Source: Iamia majanohamensis (GTDB lineage Bacteria; Actinomycetota; Acidimicrobiia; Acidimicrobiales; Iamiaceae). From it: a DNA stretch of 64,000 bases. A program made the position numbers and the translations under genes. Position 1 is the first letter of the stretch. The number at the start of each line of letters is the position of its first letter. This document shows positions 8,492-36,312 of the stretch, one piece after another. The notes below the pieces were generated by a model. It did not search any database and had not been told where the DNA came from. It saw only the letters and a program-made list of their open reading frames with translations. The stretch is from assembly GCF_028532485.1 (NCBI RefSeq), contig NZ_CP116942.1:434001-498000 (forward strand), given 5' to 3'.

Positions 8492-10723
8492 GTGGAGCGC
8501 GGAGAGCCGGCGCGCCCCGTCCAAGCGGCGGCCGCGCGCATCGAGCGGGCCACTGGCTGGCGCGTCGACGTCGAGGTGGTCCAACCGCTGCTGCGCGCCG
8601 TGCACGGGGACCTCGACGGGGTGGATGCCGTGGCCCGAGGTGTGGCCGACCAGACCGAGCTGCTTGCCCGCCCCTTCCGCCCGCTCGACGCGCTGGCCCC
8701 GGCCTGCGCGCGGGCCCCCGCCGGCGCCCCCGGCGACGCGGTCGTCGTCGCCCTGCTGCACGCCATCGGCGCCGAGGACCCCCTCGCCCTCCGCGCCGCC
8801 CTCGAGGACCTCGACGGCAGCGACGCGGCGTGCACCGCCGCGCTCGATGCGGGGCTCCTACGGCGGGTCCCCGGCGGGGTGGCGCCGGCCGACCCGGCCG
8901 TCGCCGCCCGGACGTGGGTCGACGCGACCGACGAGCAGCGGACCCGCGCCCTCGCGGCGCTGGCCTCCAGGACGCCCGACCCCGAGGCCCGGGCCTGGTA
9001 CGACGCTTGGGCCGCCACCGGACCCGACGCGGGGTGCGCCCAGGCGCTCGTCGCGGCCGGCGAACGGGCCCTCGGTGGGGGCCGCGCGGTGCGCGCCGGC
9101 TCCGCCTACGAGGTCGCGGCCGCGCTGCACCCGGATCCGGGCGCAGCCGACGCCCTCGCCGTGCGGGCCGCCGAGGTCTTCTTCGTCGCCGGCCTGCTAC
9201 GCCACGCCCTCGCCCTGCTCCGCCGCCGGGCGGACGAGACCCGCGACCCCGCCACCCTCGCCACGGTGCACCGCATGGTCGGGCGGGTGCTGCTGTTCGA
9301 GGGCGAGCTCGCCGACGCCGAGGCCCACCTCCTGGCCCACGCCGGTCCGGTGGCGGCGCGCCACGCCGACCTGGGCCTGCTCCTGCGCGCCGAGGCCCTC
9401 TGGGTCCGGGCGGTCGACGGCCGCCTCGCCACGGCCCTGCCCCTGATCGCGGAGGGCGGACCGCCGGACGACGACTCCCCGCGCTTCGTGAAGGCGTGCT
9501 GGACCGGCCTCCGCAACATGCTTGGCACCGGCGTGGAGCGGACCGAGCTGGAGGAGCGCGCCGCCGAGTTCAGGGCCATGCCGGCCGATGACCCCGAGGC
9601 GACGATGGTCGGCTACGTCATCCTCCACGCCGCCATGCTGATGGACGCTCGCGACATCGCCGACGAGGTGCTCGAGGTGCTGCGCCACCGCCAGGTGCGG
9701 GAGGGCGCAGCGGCCAACCGGGCCTTGGTGCTGGCCGGCGCGTCCGAGCTGGCGTGGTGGCGGGGCGACTGGGCCCTCGCCCGGTCCTCGGCCCAGGAGG
9801 CCCTCGACCTGGCCAGCCTCCGGGGCGACACGATCAGCCCGGCCCGGGCGGTGCTCACCCTCGCCCGGTGCTTCTACGCCGGGGACGGGGCGGCGGCGGC
9901 GGACGAGCTCCTCGAGCGCTACCTGCCCAGCGTCCCCGGCTGGTCCCACCCGGCCCTGCTCGCAGCCCGGGGCCACGGGCACCTGGTGCGCGGCCGCACC
10001 GACCAGGCGGTGGCCGAGCTCCGAGCCGCCATCGAGGCCGAGACCCAGCCCGAGTCCGGGCTCCCGCACGCCAAGATGAGCGCCGCCGGCGGCGACCACG
10101 TCACCGCCCTCGTGCTCGCCGGGCGCCTCGACGAGGCCGCATCGTTCCTCGATCGGTGGCGCAGCGACCCCGGGGCGTCGGGACGGTGGGCGCAGGGGGC
10201 GGCCCGCCGCTGCGACGCTCTGCTCCTCGAGGGTGAGGAGGCCGATGACGCGACGGCGGAGGCGGTCGCCCTGCTCCAGGACTTCCCGCTCGAGCAGGGC
10301 CGGGCGCTGCTCGAGCAGGGCTGGCGCCAGCTCCACGGCCACGACGCCGAGGCCGCCCTCTCGTCGTTCCGGGCCGCGCTCCGTCGGTTCGTCGGGCTGG
10401 GCGCCACCGCATGGGCCCGACAGGCCGAGGCCGGCCTCGCCGACCCGGCCATCAGCGACGACGGGGTCCGCCACGCCCTGGGGCGGCTCTCGCCCCAGGA
10501 GCGCCAGCTCGTCGGGCTCGTGGCCGAGGGGCTCACCAACCGGGAGGTGGCGACCGCGCTCCACCTGTCACCCAAGACCGTCGAGAACCGGCTCACGGGG
10601 ATCTACGCCGCGCTCGGGGTGCGCAGCCGGGTCGACCTGGTGCGTCGGGTGGGAGAGGGGCGGGGGGGTCCCCTCCGGAACCAGGGGGACATCCCTCTAC
10701 CGGGGCGATCGGCGACTCCGTAG
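8492..10723 (+). CDS. Large LuxR-family transcriptional regulator with TPR-like core
   Basis: A 743-residue protein. The C-terminal LuxR/GerE helix-turn-helix (about 665-730) reads LSPQERQLVGLVAEGLTNRE followed by VATALHLSPKTVENRL. The centre (about 180-640) is Ala/Leu-rich helical repeats resembling TPR arrays, as in LAL/MalT-type regulators. Unlike true LAL proteins, no N-terminal Walker A/B ATPase is visible. The ligand and targets are unknown. The downstream lipoprotein pair has its own promoter and could be a target, but nothing in the sequence proves it. The GTG start is chosen from the leaderless -10. Confidence 0.8.
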   Translation: MERGEPARPVQAAAARIERATGWRVDVEVVQPLLRAVHGDLDGVDAVARGVADQTELLARPFRPLDALAPACARAPAGAPGDAVVVALLHAIGAEDPLALRAALEDLDGSDAACTAALDAGLLRRVPGGVAPADPAVAARTWVDATDEQRTRALAALASRTPDPEARAWYDAWAATGPDAGCAQALVAAGERALGGGRAVRAGSAYEVAAALHPDPGAADALAVRAAEVFFVAGLLRHALALLRRRADETRDPATLATVHRMVGRVLLFEGELADAEAHLLAHAGPVAARHADLGLLLRAEALWVRAVDGRLATALPLIAEGGPPDDDSPRFVKACWTGLRNMLGTGVERTELEERAAEFRAMPADDPEATMVGYVILHAAMLMDARDIADEVLEVLRHRQVREGAAANRALVLAGASELAWWRGDWALARSSAQEALDLASLRGDTISPARAVLTLARCFYAGDGAAAADELLERYLPSVPGWSHPALLAARGHGHLVRGRTDQAVAELRAAIEAETQPESGLPHAKMSAAGGDHVTALVLAGRLDEAASFLDRWRSDPGASGRWAQGAARRCDALLLEGEEADDATAEAVALLQDFPLEQGRALLEQGWRQLHGHDAEAALSSFRAALRRFVGLGATAWARQAEAGLADPAISDDGVRHALGRLSPQERQLVGLVAEGLTNREVATALHLSPKTVENRLTGIYAALGVRSRVDLVRRVGEGRGGPLRNQGDIPLPGRSATP

Positions 10724-10726
10724 GTT
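10721..10726 (+). promoter_or_regulatory. -10 element TAGGTT within a shared CTCCGTAGGTTCC motif
   Basis: The 13-mer CTCCGTAGGTTCC at 10716-10728 is identical to the -10 regions of pstS2 and pstC further downstream. It should drive the lipoprotein pair with a leader of about 45 bases. No PHO-box repeats are seen upstream. Confidence 0.5.
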
Positions 10727-10776
10727 CCCCGCCGCTCGCCAACGGGCGGGCGGACGTGCGACCCACGGAGCGGACG

Positions 10777-22461: not shown

Positions 22462-22559
22462 GGCCACCCGCGCCGAGGTCGGCACCGGCGTCACCCGGCG
22501 TCCACCTGGCGTCGACCGTGGGGCCACCGGGGCGTGGGTCCCGCGTCGGCGGGCGCCGG

Positions 22560-22565
22560 TAGCAT
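22560..22565 (+). promoter_or_regulatory. -10 element TAGCAT, leaderless start of ppk1
   Basis: TAGCAT ends 8 bases before the ATG at 22574. Confidence 0.5.
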
Positions 22566-22573
22566 CGACGGCC

Positions 22574-24724
22574 ATGTCGACGACCACCGCGCCGGAGAGC
22601 ACGCCGGGGGCCGACGACGAGCAGGCGCCCGGCACCATCGCCGCCGACGACCCGGAGCGCTTCCTCAACCGCGAGCTGTCGTGGCTCGACTTCAACGAGC
22701 GGGTGCTGGCCCTGGCCGACGACCCCTCGATCCCGCTGCTGGAGCGGGCCAAGTTCCTCGCCATCTTCAGCCAGAACCTCGACGAGTTCTTCCAGGTCCG
22801 GGTGGCGGGCCTCCTCGACCAGGTCGCTGCGGGCATCCGCCTCCGGGCGCCCGACGGCCGCTCGCCCACCGCCCAGGTGCGCGAGCTGGCGGCCCGGGCC
22901 CGCGACCTCGTGGAGCGCGAGGAGCGCCTCTTCCTCGAGCACGTGGCCCCGGAGCTGGCCGCCAACGGCATCGTCCTCTCCTCGTGGGAGGAGCTCGACG
23001 ACGACGACCGCCAGCACATGGTGGGGGTCTTCCAGGACCGCATCTTCCCGGTGCTCACCCCCCTGGCCGTCGACCCCGGCCACCCCTTCCCCTACATTTC
23101 CAACCTGTCGCTCAACCTGGCCGTCACCGTCCGCGACCCGGTCACCGACGAGCGCCGCTTCGCCCGGGTCAAGGTGCCGCCGGTGCTGTCGCGCTTCGTC
23201 GTCATGCCCGACGGCGAGCGCTTCGTGCCCCTCGAGCAGGTCATCGCCGCCCACCTCGACGAGCTCTTCCCCGGCATGGCCATCGACGACGTGGTGGCCT
23301 TCCGAGTGACCCGCAACGCGGACCTCACCCTCGAGGAGGAGGAGGCCGACGACCTCCTCGCCGCGGTGGAGATGGAGCTGCGCCGGCGCCGCTTCGGGCG
23401 GGCGGTGCGCCTGGAGATCGACGCCGAGGCCTCGCCCGAGGTCCGCGAGCTGCTGATGCGGGAGCTCGACGTCGACGAGCACGCCGTGTTCGAGCACCAG
23501 GGGCCCCTCGACCTCGGGGGCCTGTGGGCGGTGCACGCCCTCGACCGGCCCGACCTCCGCGACGAGGACTGGCCCTCGGTCACCCAGGCCCGCCTGTCGG
23601 CACCCGAGGGCGAGCCCTTCGACATCTTCGCCGCCGTCGCCGAGGGCCCGATCCTCGTCCACCACCCCTACGACTCCTTCGTCACCTCGGTCGAGGAGCT
23701 GGTCCGCCGGGCGTCGCGGGACCCCAAGGTCCTGGCCATCAAGATCACCCTCTACCGCACGTCGGGCGACAGCCCCATCGTGCGCTCGCTGGTGCGCGCC
23801 GCCGAGCGGGGCAAGCAGGTGGCCGCCCTGGTGGAGCTGAAGGCCCGCTTCGACGAGGCCAACAACATCGAGTGGGCCAAGGTGCTGGAGGAGGCGGGCG
23901 TCCACGTCACCTACGGGCTGCTCGGGCTCAAGACCCACACCAAGACCCTGCTCGTCGTGCGCGACGAGGAGGACGGCATCCGCCGCTACTGCCACGTCGG
24001 CACCGGCAACTACAACAGCAAGACCGCCACCCTCTACGAGGACCTCGGCATCCTCAGCGCCGACGCGGACCTGGGCACCGACCTCACCCAGCTCTTCAAC
24101 TACCTCACCGGCTACGGCCGCAACGTCGACTACCGCCGGCTGATGGTGGCGCCCCACTCGATGCGGGCCGGCATCGTCGAGCTCATCCGCGGCGAGGTCG
24201 CGGCCGGGCCCGGCCGGGGCCGGATCGTGATGAAGATGAACAGCCTGGTCGACCCCCAGATGATCGACGTGCTCTACGAGGCGTCGGCCGCCGGGGTCGA
24301 GATCGATCTCATCATCCGGGGGATCTGCTGCCTGCGCCCCGGGGTGCCCGGGCTGTCGGAGAACATCCGGGTCCGCTCGCTGGTGGGCCGCTTCCTCGAG
24401 CACTCCCGCATCTACTGGTTCGCCAACGGCACCGAGGACGACCGCCCCCTCGTCGCCATCGGCTCGGCCGACCTCATGCCCCGGAACCTGGACCGCCGGG
24501 TCGAGGCCCTGACGGTGATCACCGACCCCGCCGTCGAGGCCCAGGTCCGCCAGGTGCTCGACGTCAACCTCGAGGACGACACCCTGGCCTGGACCCTCCA
24601 CGCCGACGGCTCCTGGCACCCCGTGGCCGGCGAGGGCCACGTCAACGCCCACGAGCGCTTCCGGGCCCTCGCCCTGGCCCGCACCCGTCGGCTCGAGCCG
24701 GCCGACGTCGACGACGCCCTCTGA
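22574..24724 (+). CDS. ppk1: Polyphosphate kinase 1
   Basis: A 716-residue PPK1. The N-terminal domain has RFLNRELSWLDFNERVLALA and the FSQNLDEFFQVRVAGL signature. The phospholipase-D-like C-terminal domains carry the two essential histidines: H455 (LKTHTK) as the phosphorylation site and H610 (LEHSRIYWF). The length equals the family norm (about 690-720). It makes long-chain polyphosphate from ATP, reversibly, in the cytoplasm. It has its own leaderless start and is followed by CYTH-CHAD and NUDIX genes. Upstream lies a ROK kinase, downstream the Pst/Pho genes. Confidence 0.97.
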   Translation: MSTTTAPESTPGADDEQAPGTIAADDPERFLNRELSWLDFNERVLALADDPSIPLLERAKFLAIFSQNLDEFFQVRVAGLLDQVAAGIRLRAPDGRSPTAQVRELAARARDLVEREERLFLEHVAPELAANGIVLSSWEELDDDDRQHMVGVFQDRIFPVLTPLAVDPGHPFPYISNLSLNLAVTVRDPVTDERRFARVKVPPVLSRFVVMPDGERFVPLEQVIAAHLDELFPGMAIDDVVAFRVTRNADLTLEEEEADDLLAAVEMELRRRRFGRAVRLEIDAEASPEVRELLMRELDVDEHAVFEHQGPLDLGGLWAVHALDRPDLRDEDWPSVTQARLSAPEGEPFDIFAAVAEGPILVHHPYDSFVTSVEELVRRASRDPKVLAIKITLYRTSGDSPIVRSLVRAAERGKQVAALVELKARFDEANNIEWAKVLEEAGVHVTYGLLGLKTHTKTLLVVRDEEDGIRRYCHVGTGNYNSKTATLYEDLGILSADADLGTDLTQLFNYLTGYGRNVDYRRLMVAPHSMRAGIVELIRGEVAAGPGRGRIVMKMNSLVDPQMIDVLYEASAAGVEIDLIIRGICCLRPGVPGLSENIRVRSLVGRFLEHSRIYWFANGTEDDRPLVAIGSADLMPRNLDRRVEALTVITDPAVEAQVRQVLDVNLEDDTLAWTLHADGSWHPVAGEGHVNAHERFRALALARTRRLEPADVDDAL

Positions 24725-27881: not shown

Positions 27882-27992
27882 GCGACGGTCCCCCGGGGCG
27901 GAGGGCCACGGCCCCCACCGGTGAGGCCGCGGTCGACCGGGGACGCCACCCGGCAGAGCGTCGCAGGCACCCTGCGGGGCCGGGAGGTGAAC

Positions 27993-28025
27993 GTTGGGAA
28001 GCCGTTCACGGCTCGTTCACCAGGA
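27993..28025 (+). promoter_or_regulatory. PHO box: three 11-bp direct repeats upstream of pstS2
   Basis: Units in tandem: GTTGGGAAGCC (degenerate), GTTCACGGCTC and GTTCACCAGGA. The GTTCACC core and the 11-base period match the actinobacterial PhoP operator. The last unit ends 27 bases before the TAGGTT -10. An inverted GGTGAAC half-site lies just upstream at 27986-27992. Confidence 0.8.
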
Positions 28026-28052
28026 GCGGGGACGGCCGCCACCTGCCCTCCG

Positions 28053-28058
28053 TAGGTT
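28053..28058 (+). promoter_or_regulatory. -10 element TAGGTT of pstS2
   Basis: Part of the 13-mer CTCCGTAGGTTCC (28048-28060), shared with pstC and the lipoprotein pair. The leader ends with GAGGAG before the ATG at 28116. Confidence 0.6.
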
Positions 28059-28115
28059 CCGCGCCGGGTCCGCACGGACCCTCCCCCGGACCCTCCAGAG
28101 GAGACCCACAGCACC

Positions 28116-29174
28116 ATGCACCACCGAGTCCGCAAGGCCGGCGTGGCCGTCGCCGCCGCCGCCCTCCTGCTCAGCGCCGCCGCCTGCGGCAACGACAACA
28201 CCGACGAGGCCGGCGGTGACACCGACGCCCAGGCCGACACCGAGGTGTCCGGCAGCGTCGCCGTCTCCGGCTCCTCGACCGTCGAGCCCATCTCGACCGC
28301 GGTCGCCGAGGCCTTCCGGGGCCAGAACTCCGAGGTCGACATCACCGTCGAGGGCCCCGGGACCGGCGACGGCTTCGAGCAGTTCTGCGGCGGCGAGACC
28401 GACATCTCCGATGCCTCCCGCCCGATCGCCGAGGACGAGATCGCCGCCTGCGAGGAGGCCGGCATCGAGTTCGTCGAGCTCAAGGTCGGCATCGACGGCA
28501 TCAGCGTCATCACCTCGCCGGACAACCCGCTGGAGTGCATGAACTTCTCGGACCTGTACGCCCTGATCGGGCCGGAGTCCGAGGGCATCGACAACTGGTC
28601 GGGCGCCCAGGAGCTGGCCACCGAGCTGGGCTCGGAGACCGAGCTCCCGGACGAGAACCTGGTCATCACCGCGCCCGGTGAGGAGTCGGGCACCTTCGAC
28701 AGCTTCATCGAGATCGTCATCGAGACCGCGGCCGAGCCGCGGGTCGAGGCGGGCGACATCACCGAGGACCAGGCCGCCACCGTGCGGAGCGACTACTCCT
28801 CGAGCGCCAACGACAACACCATCATCGAGGGCGTGGCCGCCGAGCCCGGTGGCCTGGGCTGGGTCGGGTTCGCCTTCGCCGACCAGGCCGAGGGCGTCGG
28901 GCTCATGCCCATCTCCGAGGAGCCCGGCGGCGAGTGCGTCGAGCCCACGCCGGAGACCATCCAGGACGGCAGCTACCCGATCGCCCGTGACCTGTTCATC
29001 TACGTGAACAAGGCCAAGGCCGAGGAGAACGCCGCCGTCGCCGCCTACGTGGACTTCTACCTGGACGGCCTGGCCGGCTTCGTCGAGGGGGCGGACTACA
29101 TCCCCCTCGAGGACGACGCCGAGACGGTCGCCACCTGGGAGGACATGACCACGGGGACCCAGGTCGAGGGCTGA
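28116..29174 (+). CDS. pstS: Phosphate-binding lipoprotein PstS (paralogue 2, PHO-box controlled)
   Basis: A 352-residue lipoprotein: signal VAVAAAALLLSAAACGND with lipobox SAAC. The phosphate-binding segments are VSGSSTVEPIS, GPGTGDGFEQFCGGETDISD, PGEESGTFDSFIE and SSANDNTIIEGV. It is highly similar to the preceding PstS, but has its own PHO box and strong promoter and is closed by a 14-bp hairpin, so it can be made in large amounts during phosphate starvation separately from the membrane subunits. Confidence 0.95.
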   Translation: MHHRVRKAGVAVAAAALLLSAAACGNDNTDEAGGDTDAQADTEVSGSVAVSGSSTVEPISTAVAEAFRGQNSEVDITVEGPGTGDGFEQFCGGETDISDASRPIAEDEIAACEEAGIEFVELKVGIDGISVITSPDNPLECMNFSDLYALIGPESEGIDNWSGAQELATELGSETELPDENLVITAPGEESGTFDSFIEIVIETAAEPRVEAGDITEDQAATVRSDYSSSANDNTIIEGVAAEPGGLGWVGFAFADQAEGVGLMPISEEPGGECVEPTPETIQDGSYPIARDLFIYVNKAKAEENAAVAAYVDFYLDGLAGFVEGADYIPLEDDAETVATWEDMTTGTQVEG

Positions 29175-29186
29175 CGCCCGGTCGAC

Positions 29187-29217
29187 GAGGGGACCCGGCC
29201 GCCGGCCGGGTCCCCTC
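29187..29217 (+). terminator. Strong hairpin after pstS2, 14-bp stem
   Basis: GAGGGGACCCGGCC pairs perfectly with GGCCGGGTCCCCTC around a 3-base loop, 12 bases after the pstS2 stop. It separates pstS2 from the pstC operon. Confidence 0.7.
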
Positions 29218-29257
29218 TCCGGACGCGGGGGCCCTCGCCCCGGGGCCGGCGACCGCT

Positions 29258-29290
29258 GTTCCGCCCCTGTTCACCCCCCGTTCACCCCCG
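29258..29290 (+). promoter_or_regulatory. PHO box: three 11-bp direct repeats upstream of pstC
   Basis: Units in tandem: GTTCCGCCCCT, GTTCACCCCCC and GTTCACCCCCG. The last unit ends 27 bases before the -10 TAGGTT, the same spacing as at pstS2. Confidence 0.82.
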
Positions 29291-29317
29291 TCGGTCCCTG
29301 CCGACACCCTCGCTCCG

Positions 29318-29323
29318 TAGGTT
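29318..29323 (+). promoter_or_regulatory. -10 element TAGGTT of the pstC operon
   Basis: Part of CTCCGTAGGTTCC (29313-29325). It should start the long pstC-pstA-pstB-phoU-phoU-surE-phoR-phoP transcript, with a leader of about 70 bases. Confidence 0.6.
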
Positions 29324-29399
29324 CCCGGCGACGGGCGCCGACGGGGTCGGCGCCATCGGGCGCCGCCCGACCACCCCTCGATCGCTCTCCGAGGCCCGG

Positions 29400-30329
29400 A
29401 TGACCGCTCTGCCCCCCGAACCCCGCGTCACCCTGGCGGACCTGAGCCGCCAGGACGGCCGCACCGCCGTCGACCGGGTCGTCTCCCGCCTCCTGGCCGG
29501 CGCCGGGCTGCTCGCCATCGTGATCAGCCTGCTGATCATCTGGACGCTGACCCGCGACGCCCTCGCCTTCCTCACCGACGTCGACCTGAGCCTGCTCTGG
29601 GGCGACGTCTGGAGCCCGCGCAGCGGTCGCTACGGGATCCAGGCCCCGCTGACCGGCACCCTGTGGGTGACGTTGGTGGGGACCATGATCGCCGGGCCGC
29701 TCGGCCTCGGCGCCGCGATCTACCTCTCCGAGTACGCCTCGTCGAGGGTCCGGCGCATCGTGAAGCCGGTGATCGAGGTGCTGGCCAGCATCCCGTCCGT
29801 GGTCGTCGGCGTGTTCGCCTTCCGCTTCATCGCCCCCCAGATCACCCAGCGCCTCTTCTCCGGCAGCCCGACCCTCAACCTCATGGTCGCCGGCATCGGT
29901 GTGGGGCTGCTCTCCATCCCGCTCATGGCCTCGGTCTCCGAGGACGCCCTGCGGGCCGTGCCGGCCCAGCTCCGCGAGGCCTCCTACGGCCTGGGCGCCC
30001 GCAAGATCACCACCGTCACCAAGGTGGTGGTGCCGGCCGCCATCTCCGGCCTGGTGGCCGCCCTCATCCTCACCATCTCCCGGGCCGTGGGCGAGACCAT
30101 GGTGGTGTTCCTGGCCGCCGGCGGGAGCCCGACCACCTCCTCCACGCCGCTGGAGTCGGGCATCACCATCACCTCGGCCATGACCGGCGTGCTGAGCGGC
30201 AGCGACCAGCAGGTCGGCGGCACGCCCTACCAGTCCGTGTTCTTCCTCGGGCTGTGCCTCTTCTTCCTGACCCTCGTGCTGAACCTGGTGGCCGACCGGT
30301 TCGTGCGTCGGGTCCGCCAGACCTACTGA
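29400..30329 (+). CDS. pstC: Phosphate ABC transporter permease PstC
   Basis: A 309-residue permease with about six membrane helices; the first covers VVSRLLAGAGLLAIVISLLI. The BPD_transp_1 (EAA) loop reads VSEDALRAVPAQLREASYGL and GARKITTV, the site that docks onto PstB. The TSPD/GIQAPLTGTLWVTLVGT segment is typical of PstC. It imports phosphate with PstA in the cytoplasmic membrane. First gene of the PHO-box operon; pstA follows after 13 bases. Confidence 0.96.
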   Translation: MTALPPEPRVTLADLSRQDGRTAVDRVVSRLLAGAGLLAIVISLLIIWTLTRDALAFLTDVDLSLLWGDVWSPRSGRYGIQAPLTGTLWVTLVGTMIAGPLGLGAAIYLSEYASSRVRRIVKPVIEVLASIPSVVVGVFAFRFIAPQITQRLFSGSPTLNLMVAGIGVGLLSIPLMASVSEDALRAVPAQLREASYGLGARKITTVTKVVVPAAISGLVAALILTISRAVGETMVVFLAAGGSPTTSSTPLESGITITSAMTGVLSGSDQQVGGTPYQSVFFLGLCLFFLTLVLNLVADRFVRRVRQTY

Positions 30330-33615: not shown

Positions 33616-34419
33616 GTGCGCGTGCTCGTCACCAACGACGACGGGATCGAGGCCCCGGGCCTCCACGCCCTGGCCGCCGCCCTCGACCGCGCCGGCTACC
33701 AGGTGCTGGTGGCCGCCCCCGACCGGGACCACAGCGGCTACTCCGCCGCCCTGGGCGACGTCGGCGGCGACCCCCACCTGCGGATCGCCGAGGCCCGCAT
33801 CCCCGGCGTCGAGCACATCCCGGCGTGGAGCGTCGCCGGCCCACCGGCCCTCTGCGTGCTGTCGGCCCGCCTGGGCGGCTTCGGCGAGGCGCCCGACATC
33901 GTCGTGTCCGGCATCAACCCCGGCAACAACACGGGCCGGGCCGTGCTCCACTCGGGCACCGTGGGCGCCGCCCTCACCGGCGCCAACCTGGGGATCACGG
34001 GCGTGGCCGTGAGCGTGGCCGTCACCCCCGAGCCCCGCTTCGACACCGCCGCCGCGGTCGCGGTGGCGGCGCTGGGGTGGGCGGCCACCGCCCCCACCCG
34101 CACCGTGCTCAACGTCAACGTGCCCGCGGTCGACCTCGCCGCCCTGGGGGGCACCCGGTGGGCCGCGCTCGCCCCGTTCGGCACCGTCCGCTCCACCCTC
34201 GACCCGAGCGGCCCGGGTCGGCTCACCATGACCCTGGTGGAGACCAACGTCGAGCTCCCGCCGGACTCCGACACCGCCCTCGTGGGGGCCGGCTACGTGG
34301 CGGTCACCTGCCTGAGCGGCATCCGCCAGGCCGAGTGGCAGCCGGTGGCCGCGGATGTCGACCGGCGCCTGGCCGCGACCCAGCGGCGTCACCGACCGGC
34401 GACCGGGGAGACGGCCTGA
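33616..34419 (+). CDS. surE: 5'/3'-nucleotidase SurE
   Basis: A 267-residue SurE phosphatase. The metal site is formed by LVTNDDGIEAPG (Asp-Asp), the HSGYSAA segment, VVSGINPGNNTGRAVLHSGTVGA with the conserved Asn and Ser/Thr. SurE removes phosphate from nucleoside monophosphates and can act on short polyphosphate in some species. It begins with GTG 3 bases after phoU copy 2 and ends 1 base before phoR, so it is inside the phosphate operon. That places it as a salvage enzyme used in phosphate starvation. Confidence 0.93.
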   Translation: MRVLVTNDDGIEAPGLHALAAALDRAGYQVLVAAPDRDHSGYSAALGDVGGDPHLRIAEARIPGVEHIPAWSVAGPPALCVLSARLGGFGEAPDIVVSGINPGNNTGRAVLHSGTVGAALTGANLGITGVAVSVAVTPEPRFDTAAAVAVAALGWAATAPTRTVLNVNVPAVDLAALGGTRWAALAPFGTVRSTLDPSGPGRLTMTLVETNVELPPDSDTALVGAGYVAVTCLSGIRQAEWQPVAADVDRRLAATQRRHRPATGETA

Positions 34420-34420
34420 C

Positions 34421-35611
34421 GTGGCCCTCCTGCTGGGTGCGCTCGTCGTCACCCTGGCCGGCGTCGCCGTGCTCCTCGCCGTCCGGGTCCAGGCCCTGGG
34501 GCGGGAGGTCGGGCGCGTCGCCCCGCTGGAGCGGGAGCGGGCCGAGGCACGCGACCGGGAGGAGGCGGCCCGCGAGGCCTTGGCCCGGGTCCAGCAGGCC
34601 CTCGACGCCCTGCCCCCGGCGGTGGTCGTGGTCGACGCGGCCGGTCGGGTCGTGGCCCGCAACCGGGCCTCGGTCGACGACGACGGCGGCCGCCACGGGG
34701 CCGCCCTCGTCAGCGGCGCGGTGGAGGAGCTGCTGGAGGCCGCCCTCCGGGGCGAGCCCGGCGAGCGCCAGCTCGACCTCTTCGGCCCGCCCCGCCGCAC
34801 CGTCGAGGTCCGGGCCCGCCCGCTGCCCGACGGCGCCCTCGTGGTCACCGAGGACGTCACCGAGGCCCGCCGGGTCGAGGCCATGCGGCGCGACTTCGTG
34901 GCCAACCTGAGCCACGAGCTGAAGACGCCCGTCGGCGCCATCGGGCTCCTGGCCGAGACGCTGCTCGCCGAGCCCGACCCCGAGGTGGCCGAGCGGCTGG
35001 CCGAGCGGGTCGTCAACGAGTCGTTCCGGGTCAGCCGCACCATCGACGACCTGCTCGAGCTCAGCCGCATCGAGGCCGGTGCCGACGCCGTGCAGGAGGC
35101 GGTGCCCGTCCACCTCGTCCTGGAGGAGGCGGCCGACCGCCTGCGCCCGGCGGCCGAGCAGCGGGGCATCGACCTCCGGGTCGAGGAGGTCTCCCCGCGG
35201 GTCCGGGCCCTTGGCGACCGGCGCCAGCTGGTCTCGGCCGTCGCCAACCTGCTCGACAACGCCATCAAGTACTCCGACCCCTCCACCGCCGTCGAGCTCC
35301 GGGCCCGGGCCGACGGCGACCGGGTCTCCATCGACATCGAGGACCACGGGCTCGGGATCCCGGCCCGGGACCTGGAGCGGGTGTTCGAGCGCTTCTACCG
35401 GGTCGACCGGGCCCGCAGCCGGGAGACCGGGGGCACCGGACTGGGCCTCGCCATCGTCCGCCACGTGGTGGCCAACCACGAGGGCGAGGTCACCGTGGAG
35501 TCCGTCGAGGGCGAGGGCTCCACCTTCACCATCGCCGTGCCCGCCGGCCCCGGCCCCCACCCCGTCAGCGACGTGGCCGAGAGCCGGCCCGTCCCCAGGA
35601 GGACCGCATGA
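34421..35611 (+). CDS. phoR: Phosphate sensor histidine kinase (PhoR/SenX3-like)
   Basis: A 396-residue kinase. One N-terminal membrane helix (about 2-22) is followed by a helical linker and a PAS-like region (about 62-145, PPAVVVVDAAGRVVARN). The HisKA box FVANLSHELKTPVGAIGLL carries H165. The HATPase has N box NLLDNAIKYS, G1 DHGLGIP, F box FERFYRVDRARS and G2 GTGLGLAIV. The single-helix plus PAS layout is like SenX3. It autophosphorylates H165 and passes the phosphate to the overlapping response regulator. PstSCAB and PhoU likely control its activity. Confidence 0.93.
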   Translation: MALLLGALVVTLAGVAVLLAVRVQALGREVGRVAPLERERAEARDREEAAREALARVQQALDALPPAVVVVDAAGRVVARNRASVDDDGGRHGAALVSGAVEELLEAALRGEPGERQLDLFGPPRRTVEVRARPLPDGALVVTEDVTEARRVEAMRRDFVANLSHELKTPVGAIGLLAETLLAEPDPEVAERLAERVVNESFRVSRTIDDLLELSRIEAGADAVQEAVPVHLVLEEAADRLRPAAEQRGIDLRVEEVSPRVRALGDRRQLVSAVANLLDNAIKYSDPSTAVELRARADGDRVSIDIEDHGLGIPARDLERVFERFYRVDRARSRETGGTGLGLAIVRHVVANHEGEVTVESVEGEGSTFTIAVPAGPGPHPVSDVAESRPVPRRTA

Positions 35612-36312
35612 GCTCATCGCCCACCGTGCTGGTGGTGGAGGACGAGGACTCCTTCGTCGAGGCCCTCACCGTCGGCCTCGGCCGCGAGGGCTTCCGGGTC
35701 CAGGTGGCCAAGGACGGGGCCCAGGCCCTCGACCTCTTCGACGCCGTCGACCCCGACCTGGTCCTGCTCGACGTGATGCTGCCCAAGGTGTCGGGCATCG
35801 ACGTGTGCCGCGAGCTCCGCTCCCGCTCGCAGGTGCCCATCATCATGGTGACGGCCAAGGGCGCCGAGATCGACACCGTCGTCGGCCTCGAGGTGGGCGC
35901 CGACGACTACGTCACCAAGCCCTACCGGATGCGCGAGCTGGTGGCCCGCATGCGGGCCGTCATGCGGCGCTCGCCCAACGGCGAGACCCCCGCCCCGCCC
36001 GCCGACGGCGGCGAGGTGCTCCAGGTCGGGGAGGTCGTGCTCGACCCCGAGCGCCACGAGGTCCGCATCCGGGGCGAGGAGGTCGCCCTGCCGCTGAAGG
36101 AGTTCGAGCTGCTCGCCCTCCTGCTGGCCCACGCCGGGCGGGTGCTCACCCGCGACACCCTCATCGACCGGATCTGGGGCCACGACTACGTGGGCGACAC
36201 CAAGACCCTCGACGTCCACATCAAGCGCCTCCGCGCCAAGGTCGAGCCCGACCCGGGCAACCCGGCGTCGATCATCACGATCCGCGGCCTCGGCTACAAG
36301 TACGCGACCTGA
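35608..36312 (+). CDS. phoP: Phosphate response regulator (PhoP/RegX3-like)
   Basis: A 234-residue OmpR-family regulator. The receiver domain has EDED for Mg2+, phosphorylated D55 (LLDVMLPKVSG), the Thr in MVTAKG and the Lys in VTKPYRM. The winged-helix DNA-binding domain (about 135-232) ends with DVHIKRLRAKVE and TIRGLGYKY. AGGAGG precedes the ATG, which overlaps the phoR stop (ATGA). It is the expected protein binding the two PHO boxes; because it lies at the end of the PHO-box operon, it would activate its own expression. Confidence 0.95.
   Translation: MSSSPTVLVVEDEDSFVEALTVGLGREGFRVQVAKDGAQALDLFDAVDPDLVLLDVMLPKVSGIDVCRELRSRSQVPIIMVTAKGAEIDTVVGLEVGADDYVTKPYRMRELVARMRAVMRRSPNGETPAPPADGGEVLQVGEVVLDPERHEVRIRGEEVALPLKEFELLALLLAHAGRVLTRDTLIDRIWGHDYVGDTKTLDVHIKRLRAKVEPDPGNPASIITIRGLGYKYAT

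Follow-up and report, generated by a model that had tools for sequence, protein, structure and literature searches.

The pst locus and its two promoters

The window, a stretch of 64,000 nucleotides of Iamia majanohamensis DNA (NCBI RefSeq assembly GCF_028532485.1, contig NZ_CP116942.1, positions 434,001 to 498,000 of the forward strand), carries a pst locus with two pstS genes in tandem. One of these, pstS2, is followed by pstC, and further downstream the cluster contains ORFs whose translations read like pstA and pstB and then PhoU, the last recognised by family search. pstS2 and pstC are each preceded by a PHO box, and these boxes lie, as the first-pass annotation had it, before phosphate-uptake genes: PstC scores above its NCBIfam cut-off and PstS2 just below that of its family (Table 1).

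A regulator of the RegX3/PhoP type, one of the marks by which PHO boxes are assigned here, is also encoded in the genome. The protein at 35608-36312 has RegX3 (2oqr, E 9e-83) as its best match among solved structures, at 280 bits, with MtrA second at 211 bits; its best NCBIfam match is MtrA, below cut-off. Between pstS2 and pstC lies a GC-rich hairpin, possibly an attenuator or terminator, which would be consistent with the need for a second promoter at pstC.

Table 1. Features of the pst locus and of the ppk promoter (positions in the window)
Feature	Position	Strand	Remarks
ppk promoter, likely weaker member	22489-22565	+	four degenerate GTTCACC-like units at 22489, 22500, 22511 and 22522; TAGCAT at 22560, offset 38 from last unit
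pstS2 promoter, unit 1	27993-28003	+	GTTGGGAAGCC; weak, core GTTGGGA
pstS2 promoter, unit 2	28004-28014	+	GTTCACGGCTC
pstS2 promoter, unit 3	28015-28025	+	GTTCACCAGGA
pstS2 strong PHO box (units 2 and 3)	28004-28025	+	box search and profile match
pstS2 gap, 27 bases	28026-28052		
pstS2 promoter, unit 4	28026-28036	+	GCGGGGACGGC; sequence not conserved; usual -35 position
pstS2 promoter, unit 5	28037-28047	+	CGCCACCTGCC; degenerate half-site in 11-base register, core end 9 bases before -10
pstS2 -10, TAGGTT	28053-28058	+	within CTCCGTAGGTTCC, 28048-28060
pstS2, phosphate-binding lipoprotein	28116-29174	+	TIGR02136, E 9.9e-60, 202.2 bits, just below cut-off of 206.6
GC-rich hairpin between pstS2 and pstC	29187-29217	+	-43.9 kcal/mol for 29178-29238, z -2.54; without T-run
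pstC promoter, unit 1	29258-29268	+	GTTCCGCCCCT; core GTTCCGC
pstC promoter, unit 2	29269-29279	+	GTTCACCCCCC
pstC promoter, unit 3	29280-29290	+	GTTCACCCCCG
pstC strong PHO box (units 2 and 3)	29269-29290	+	box search and profile match
pstC gap, 27 bases	29291-29317		
pstC promoter, unit 4	29291-29301	+	TCGGTCCCTGC; sequence not conserved
pstC promoter, unit 5	29302-29312	+	CGACACCCTCG; degenerate half-site in register
pstC -10, TAGGTT	29318-29323	+	within CTCCGTAGGTTCC, 29313-29325
pstC, phosphate ABC transporter permease	29400-30329	+	TIGR02138, E 5.4e-65, above cut-off
Sensor kinase, SenX3/PhoR type	34355-35611	+	PAS, HisKA, HATPase_c; PnpS and PhoR models below cut-offs
Response regulator, RegX3/PhoP/PhoB type, presumed activator	35608-36312	+	Response_reg and Trans_reg_C

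Both promoters consist of three 11-base units, a gap of 27 bases and the hexamer TAGGTT within the 13-mer CTCCGTAGGTTCC, a layout pointed out by the first-pass annotation and borne out by coordinates and letters alike. Set out in 11-base steps, the pstS2 promoter (27993-28060) reads GTTGGGAAGCC GTTCACGGCTC GTTCACCAGGA GCGGGGACGGC CGCCACCTGCC CTCCGTAGGTTCC, and the pstC promoter (29258-29325) reads GTTCCGCCCCT GTTCACCCCCC GTTCACCCCCG TCGGTCCCTGC CGACACCCTCG CTCCGTAGGTTCC. Units 2 and 3 form two 11-base direct repeats, GTTCACC-N4-GTTCACC, with no and one mismatch in the two promoters. Unit 1 is weak in both arrays, agreeing with GTTCACC at three of seven letters before pstS2 and at five of seven before pstC, and relatives show little conservation here, with a mean of 3.76 of 7 core letters. 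The unit 5 cores, CGCCACC and CGACACC, are likewise weak.

In many relatives an inverted repeat, approximately GCSAAC-GTTSGC, can be seen by eye, uncounted, at the border of unit 1 and the preceding unit. The same border in the window, at 27983-27999, reads GGAGGTGAAC-GTTGGGA, and an oppositely oriented half-site may be present there.

Occurrence within the genome

The first-pass annotation had proposed a genome scan for the composite pattern, and this singles out the two promoters. At up to three mismatches, GTTCACC-N4-GTTCACC-N31-TAGGTT has three matches in the 4.58-Mb genome, namely, the two pst promoters (0 and 1 mismatch) and one other place (3 mismatches); the reversed control has none.

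The shared 13-mer is less specific. CTCCGTAGGTTCC has three exact copies and one copy with a single mismatch in the genome. The third exact copy, at 10716-10728, lacks a PHO box; 48 bases separate it from the downstream ATG (10777) of a small lipoprotein-like ORF. Neither Pfam nor NCBIfam matched this ORF, and its matches within the family are weak. Thus, while the identity of the 13-mers noted in the first-pass annotation holds, their role as a second regulatory signal is rejected. The sole one-mismatch copy (2579579-2579591 of the genome, minus strand) precedes the ATG of a 227-residue ORF by 6 bases, and GTTCACA falls exactly on its unit 5 position. No Rfam element was found in the window at these places.

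Forty-four boxes with at most two mismatches occur in the genome, of which 30 were inspected. Besides the pst promoters and one shifted reading of them, only the box at 1402657, seen in two overlapping readings, has a -10 in register; it precedes an ORF of no assigned identity, and its membership of the regulon is uncertain.

A further candidate is the ppk promoter, which is likely to be a weaker member of the class. With 8 bases between its -10 and the ATG at 22574, a leaderless transcript is possible. ppk is present in all 24 of 24 genomes, and the upstream regions of 12, the genome's own included, were read. Among the 11 relatives, one shows a pair of units in the same register that includes GTTCACC, one a weak array, and one, of the same genus, GTTCACC at unit 5; the remaining 8 of the 12 regions show nothing convincing. 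In the same-genus genome, CGTCACC stands one unit upstream of that GTTCACC, which gives the two-unit layout of E. coli phoA.

Conservation of the spacing

A PstC search of 118 genomes of the order found a match in 101, and 30 loci were taken, one of them the window's own. In this selected set, 21 of the 29 other pstC loci have a box with at most two mismatches, and 18 of those 21 have TANNNT at offset 38, counted in bases from the start of the second GTTCACC to TANNNT. A sequence-only profile was built from 18 relatives, with the own genome excluded and the training loci picked by eye on register; one locus that was in register only via a three-mismatch reading was dropped after the aligner gapped it. 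When applied to the own genome, this profile ranks the pstC site (E 2.8e-9) and the pstS2 site (E 5.7e-5) as the two best, with a third match at E 0.086.

Counts in the unselected order set, the named genomes, and the phylum sample are independent of this by-eye selection. For the unselected set, all exact GTTCACC-N4-GTTCACC boxes in 198 genomes of the order were collected regardless of any -10. Such boxes are present in 57 of the 198 genomes, compared with a single match for the reversed control. The 77 distinct boxes have TANNNT at offset 38 in 43 cases, at 49 in six, and at 37 and 39 in one each, with an average of about 0.15 per offset for other offsets from 18 to 119; the genomes share ancestry, and hence, the cases counted are not independent of one another. 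A few of the 77 boxes are duplicate or transposon-like copies, and 41 of the 43 offset-38 boxes have distinct gap sequences. In the six offset-49 boxes, the 11-base insert agrees with the core at 7, 6, 6, 5, 4, and 4 of 7 letters; it looks like an extra unit, such that the last unit of the array keeps offset 38.

A -10 at either offset is absent from 28 of the 77 boxes. Next ORFs were picked by script from the 77 boxes, eight of which had no usable or new ORF. Where the -10 lies at 38 or 49 (45 boxes), the ORF that follows is PBP_like_2 (PstS type) in 36, a transport permease in five, PhoU in two, and PhoD and an ABC ATPase in one each. For the 23 boxes without a -10 in register—one duplicate reading being omitted from this group—the next ORFs include four PBP_like_2, two transport permeases, one PhoD, and two PhoX, with no PhoU or ABC ATPase, so that phosphate genes make up a minority of this group. 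Some real PHO boxes therefore depart from the spacing rule.

The same distance is found in other orders too. When one genome per species was scanned for GTTCACC-N4-GTTCACC and TAGGTT, with the gap between them left free from 20 to 50, 57 places matched, with a gap of exactly 31 in 51; each of the other six has a gap of a different length. The 51 include Nocardia, Rhodococcus, Mycolicibacterium, Mycolicibacter, Dietzia, Streptomyces, Marmoricola, Propionibacteriaceae, Acidimicrobiia, and one Thermomicrobiales assembly. In the phylum sample (396 genomes, with TANNNT as the -10), the gap of the 35 distinct matches is 31 in 28, 20 (11 shorter) in two, and 42 (11 longer) in one; outside the own order, a hand count gives a gap of 31 in 20 of 24 rows. 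These figures describe boxes with two perfect units, which the scan pattern requires, weaker boxes being unsampled. The spacing is a conserved design across Actinomycetota and not a coincidence.

A partial literature search, which leaves absence from print unproven, found no work on Pho promoters of this bacterial group and no statement of a fixed box-to-minus-10 distance for Actinomycetota.

What occupies the gap

The first-pass annotation had suggested that the long gap might hold further degenerate units, and this is supported for unit 5 but not for unit 4. At unit 5, 22 bases on from the last GTTCACC, the A of the core is retained by 46 of 48 distinct promoters of the named genomes and by 24 of 28 promoters of the phylum sample. 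Among the 48, the unit matches GTTCACC at five or more of seven letters in 27; the same threshold is reached at unit 4 in two, about the level of control offsets. In 30 of 41 promoters of the order, AC stands at the unit 5 register, whereas in 2000 shuffles no position carried it in more than 10.

A search of 85 promoters for a -35 hexamer in the region 15 to 19 bases ahead of the -10 found none: the mean best match is 2.73 of 6, within the shuffled range of 2.35–2.79, and the best matches in the two window promoters are 3 and 2 of 6. A hidden -35 is thus rejected. The promoters have, in this respect, the PhoB-type character of lacking a recognisable -35, and they also present the CCEUES pattern, in which weaker units continue the 11-base register of two strong core units. 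The combination of a strong upstream pair and a weak proximal half-site without a -35 supports a hierarchical promoter of PhoB type.

Comparison with known phosphate systems

A close parallel is found in E. coli. Measured from the start codon on K-12 DNA, phoA has units at -80 and -69 with TATAGT at -52, and pstS has units at -106, -95, -84, and -73 with TATTTT at -56. In both promoters the -10 lies 14 bases from the last-unit TCA, and for the second-unit TCA of pstS the distance is 36 bases. At the window's pstC, the TCA of unit 3 (29282) lies 36 bases from TAGGTT (29318), and the corresponding position in the unit 5 register (29304) lies 14 bases from it. The E. coli distance of the last half-site is therefore present in register and conserved in the class, although the half-site of the window is degenerate. 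The two systems are alike in their direct 11-base repeats and in a last half-site 14 bases from the -10; they differ in the core, CTGTCAT in E. coli pstS and phoA and GTTCACC in the window. Units 4 and 5 occupy the position of the pair that E. coli phoA uses alone, but this pair is degenerate in the window and the strong pair lies upstream, whereas all four units are readable in E. coli pstS. The window promoters have the E. coli pstS layout with the two proximal units degenerate. Since the E. coli K-12 distances are equal, the proximal pair is in the classical place and differs only in being degenerate, and the different activation geometry entertained in the first-pass annotation is not needed. 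PhoB promoters are without a -35, for which PhoB compensates by recruiting or holding sigma region 4 (PMC4496699).

Among Actinomycetota, the Streptomyces CCEUES operators share both the 11-base direct repeats and the GTTCACC core with the window. At S. filipinensis phoRP-phoU, four units score 3.3, 10.6, -2.8, and 6.3 bits, which is explained by binding to a core followed by extension; with its unreadable third and moderate fourth units, this array resembles units 2–5 of the window. The fourth unit there lies, however, 4 bases from the phoU -35 hexamer, whereas the fifth-unit core of the window lies 9 bases from the -10 and a -35 is not visible (PMC6283541 for the Streptomyces operators).

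The mycobacterial SenX3-RegX3 system offers another likeness, as the regulator of the window is most similar to RegX3 and loci in Mycolicibacterium and Mycolicibacter have the same gap; the RegX3 binding sequence is reported as GT/GTCAcc-n4-cG (PMC7884335). In Microlunatus phosphovorus, the PolR sites (GTTCACnnnnnGTTCaC) have the same core and period as the window, but PolR belongs to a different two-component system (PMC6754071). A Corynebacterium glutamicum review holds that the position of the PhoR motifs in two promoters suggests different mechanisms (PMC3353115), so the geometry is not universal.

Proposed mechanism and alternatives

We read both promoters, with a probability of roughly 0.85, as phosphate-starvation promoters of the PhoB/PhoP/RegX3 type, in which the activator replaces the -35 contact by extending over units 4 and 5 at a fixed distance. 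The observations behind this reading are the layout and its conservation, spacing changes by 11 bases, a unit 5 kept in relatives, the lack of a -35, and the E. coli K-12 distances. The phosphorylated regulator, most likely the RegX3-like protein, would bind units 2 and 3 head-to-tail, and contact with this bound pair would let further protomers spread towards the promoter over units 4 and 5, with unit 5 serving as a weak, conserved half-site. At the position of the missing -35, the activator would then keep sigma region 4 of RNA polymerase at a promoter whose one core element is the -10, and transcription would start about 7 bases after each TAGGTT. We propose that the distance is rigid because activator and polymerase must occupy fixed faces of the DNA; changes in spacing would be tolerated mainly as 11-base steps, that is, as one unit more or fewer. 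Each promoter would drive a separate part of the pst locus, the one pstS2 and the other pstC and the genes after it.

The gap might alternatively be free, with the regulator confined to units 1–3 and touching the alpha or sigma subunit of polymerase from upstream of a normal -35 region, unlike E. coli PhoB. With 27 bases between them and the -10, the strong units do lie upstream of where a -35 usually stands, and in published Streptomyces annotations a -35 directly follows the PHO boxes (PMC6283541, PMC7244524). Such an arrangement is nevertheless improbable, given that a conserved unit 5 stands in register where the classical proximal site lies, that no -35 sequence is detectable, and that E. 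coli pstS has equal distances with four readable units. The choice of activator is a separate matter: it is very unlikely that another OmpR-family regulator, of MtrA or GlnR type, takes the main role from the RegX3-like protein. MtrA is its second-best match among solved structures and its best in NCBIfam, if below cut-off, and, in the family, a related box at equal distance is found at glutamine synthetase-like genes; however, RegX3 is clearly the better structural match, the kinase and regulator genes lie within the same pst-phoU cluster, and the boxes with a -10 in register precede phosphate genes.

The shared layout could also be a functionally meaningless relic of a recent duplication of promoter and pstS together, which the tandem pstS genes and the identical 13-mers would suit, the chance of 13 identical letters in two promoters of the class being about 5e-4 at the letter frequencies of the order. 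Overall, 46 of 68 positions are identical between the two promoters, but outside the motifs only 11 of 31 are, where 9.0 are expected from composition; they are hence not recent copies of each other, and the layout has been maintained by selection rather than by recent copying. The spacing also recurs in other families and orders with diverged gap letters. Recent duplication is accordingly rejected, and we give it next to no weight. The first-pass view that an identical geometry implies function is upheld by this divergence, together with the order-wide and species-wide counts, all of which place the spacing under constraint. The phosphate-starvation reading given above thus makes the spacing functional without making the mechanism new: these are ordinary phosphate-starvation switches.

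Nitrogen-type boxes and a possible shared grid

GlnR boxes consist of GAAAC-type half-sites that alternate with TNAC half-sites, and GAAAC is absent from both window promoters. Elsewhere in the genome, the promoters of amtB (1647126) and of an OmpR-type DNA-binding protein (176452, minus strand) have GAAAC/TTCAC units in the same register before the -10; the weak profile matches at these two genes look like nitrogen-type boxes rather than PHO boxes. In genomes of the family, ORFs named from their translations as glutamine synthetase-like are preceded by GTTCACA-N4-GTTCACA and then GAAAC, at the PHO-box distance to TANNNT.

Phosphate and nitrogen boxes may therefore share one grid. A more general rule can be put forward tentatively, and we hold it to be doubtful: in Actinomycetota promoters activated by the OmpR/PhoB family, half-sites would stand only at fixed positions back from the -10 in an 11-base register, insertions and deletions would add or remove entire units, and one grid would underlie boxes of both the phosphate (GTTCACC) and the nitrogen (GTTCACA...GAAAC) type. 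Unit 4 would be without a readable half-site in phosphate promoters, so that no base-specific contact is made by the protomer or sigma region there, and would be used in nitrogen ones. A strict nitrogen-type pattern has five matches in 298 genomes of the order, all in one genus, which are too few independent cases for the idea of a shared grid. If true, the rule would explain cross-binding between phosphate and nitrogen regulation and make activator promoters findable by arithmetic alone.

Significance of the spacing rule

What appeared as a coincidence between two sites becomes a measured rule: the position of the -10, the register of half-sites, and the 11-base steps are kept across Actinomycetota and equal the distances of E. 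coli pstS. Functional PHO promoters can be called by a box with a -10 at 38 or 49 instead of by the box by itself, as the next gene is of PstS type in 36 of 45 such cases versus 4 of 23 without the -10. The rule also predicts the bases covered by the activator, and the transcription start sites, in bacteria whose promoters are unstudied. It is this quantitative, phylum-wide spacing rule that may be of use to specialists.
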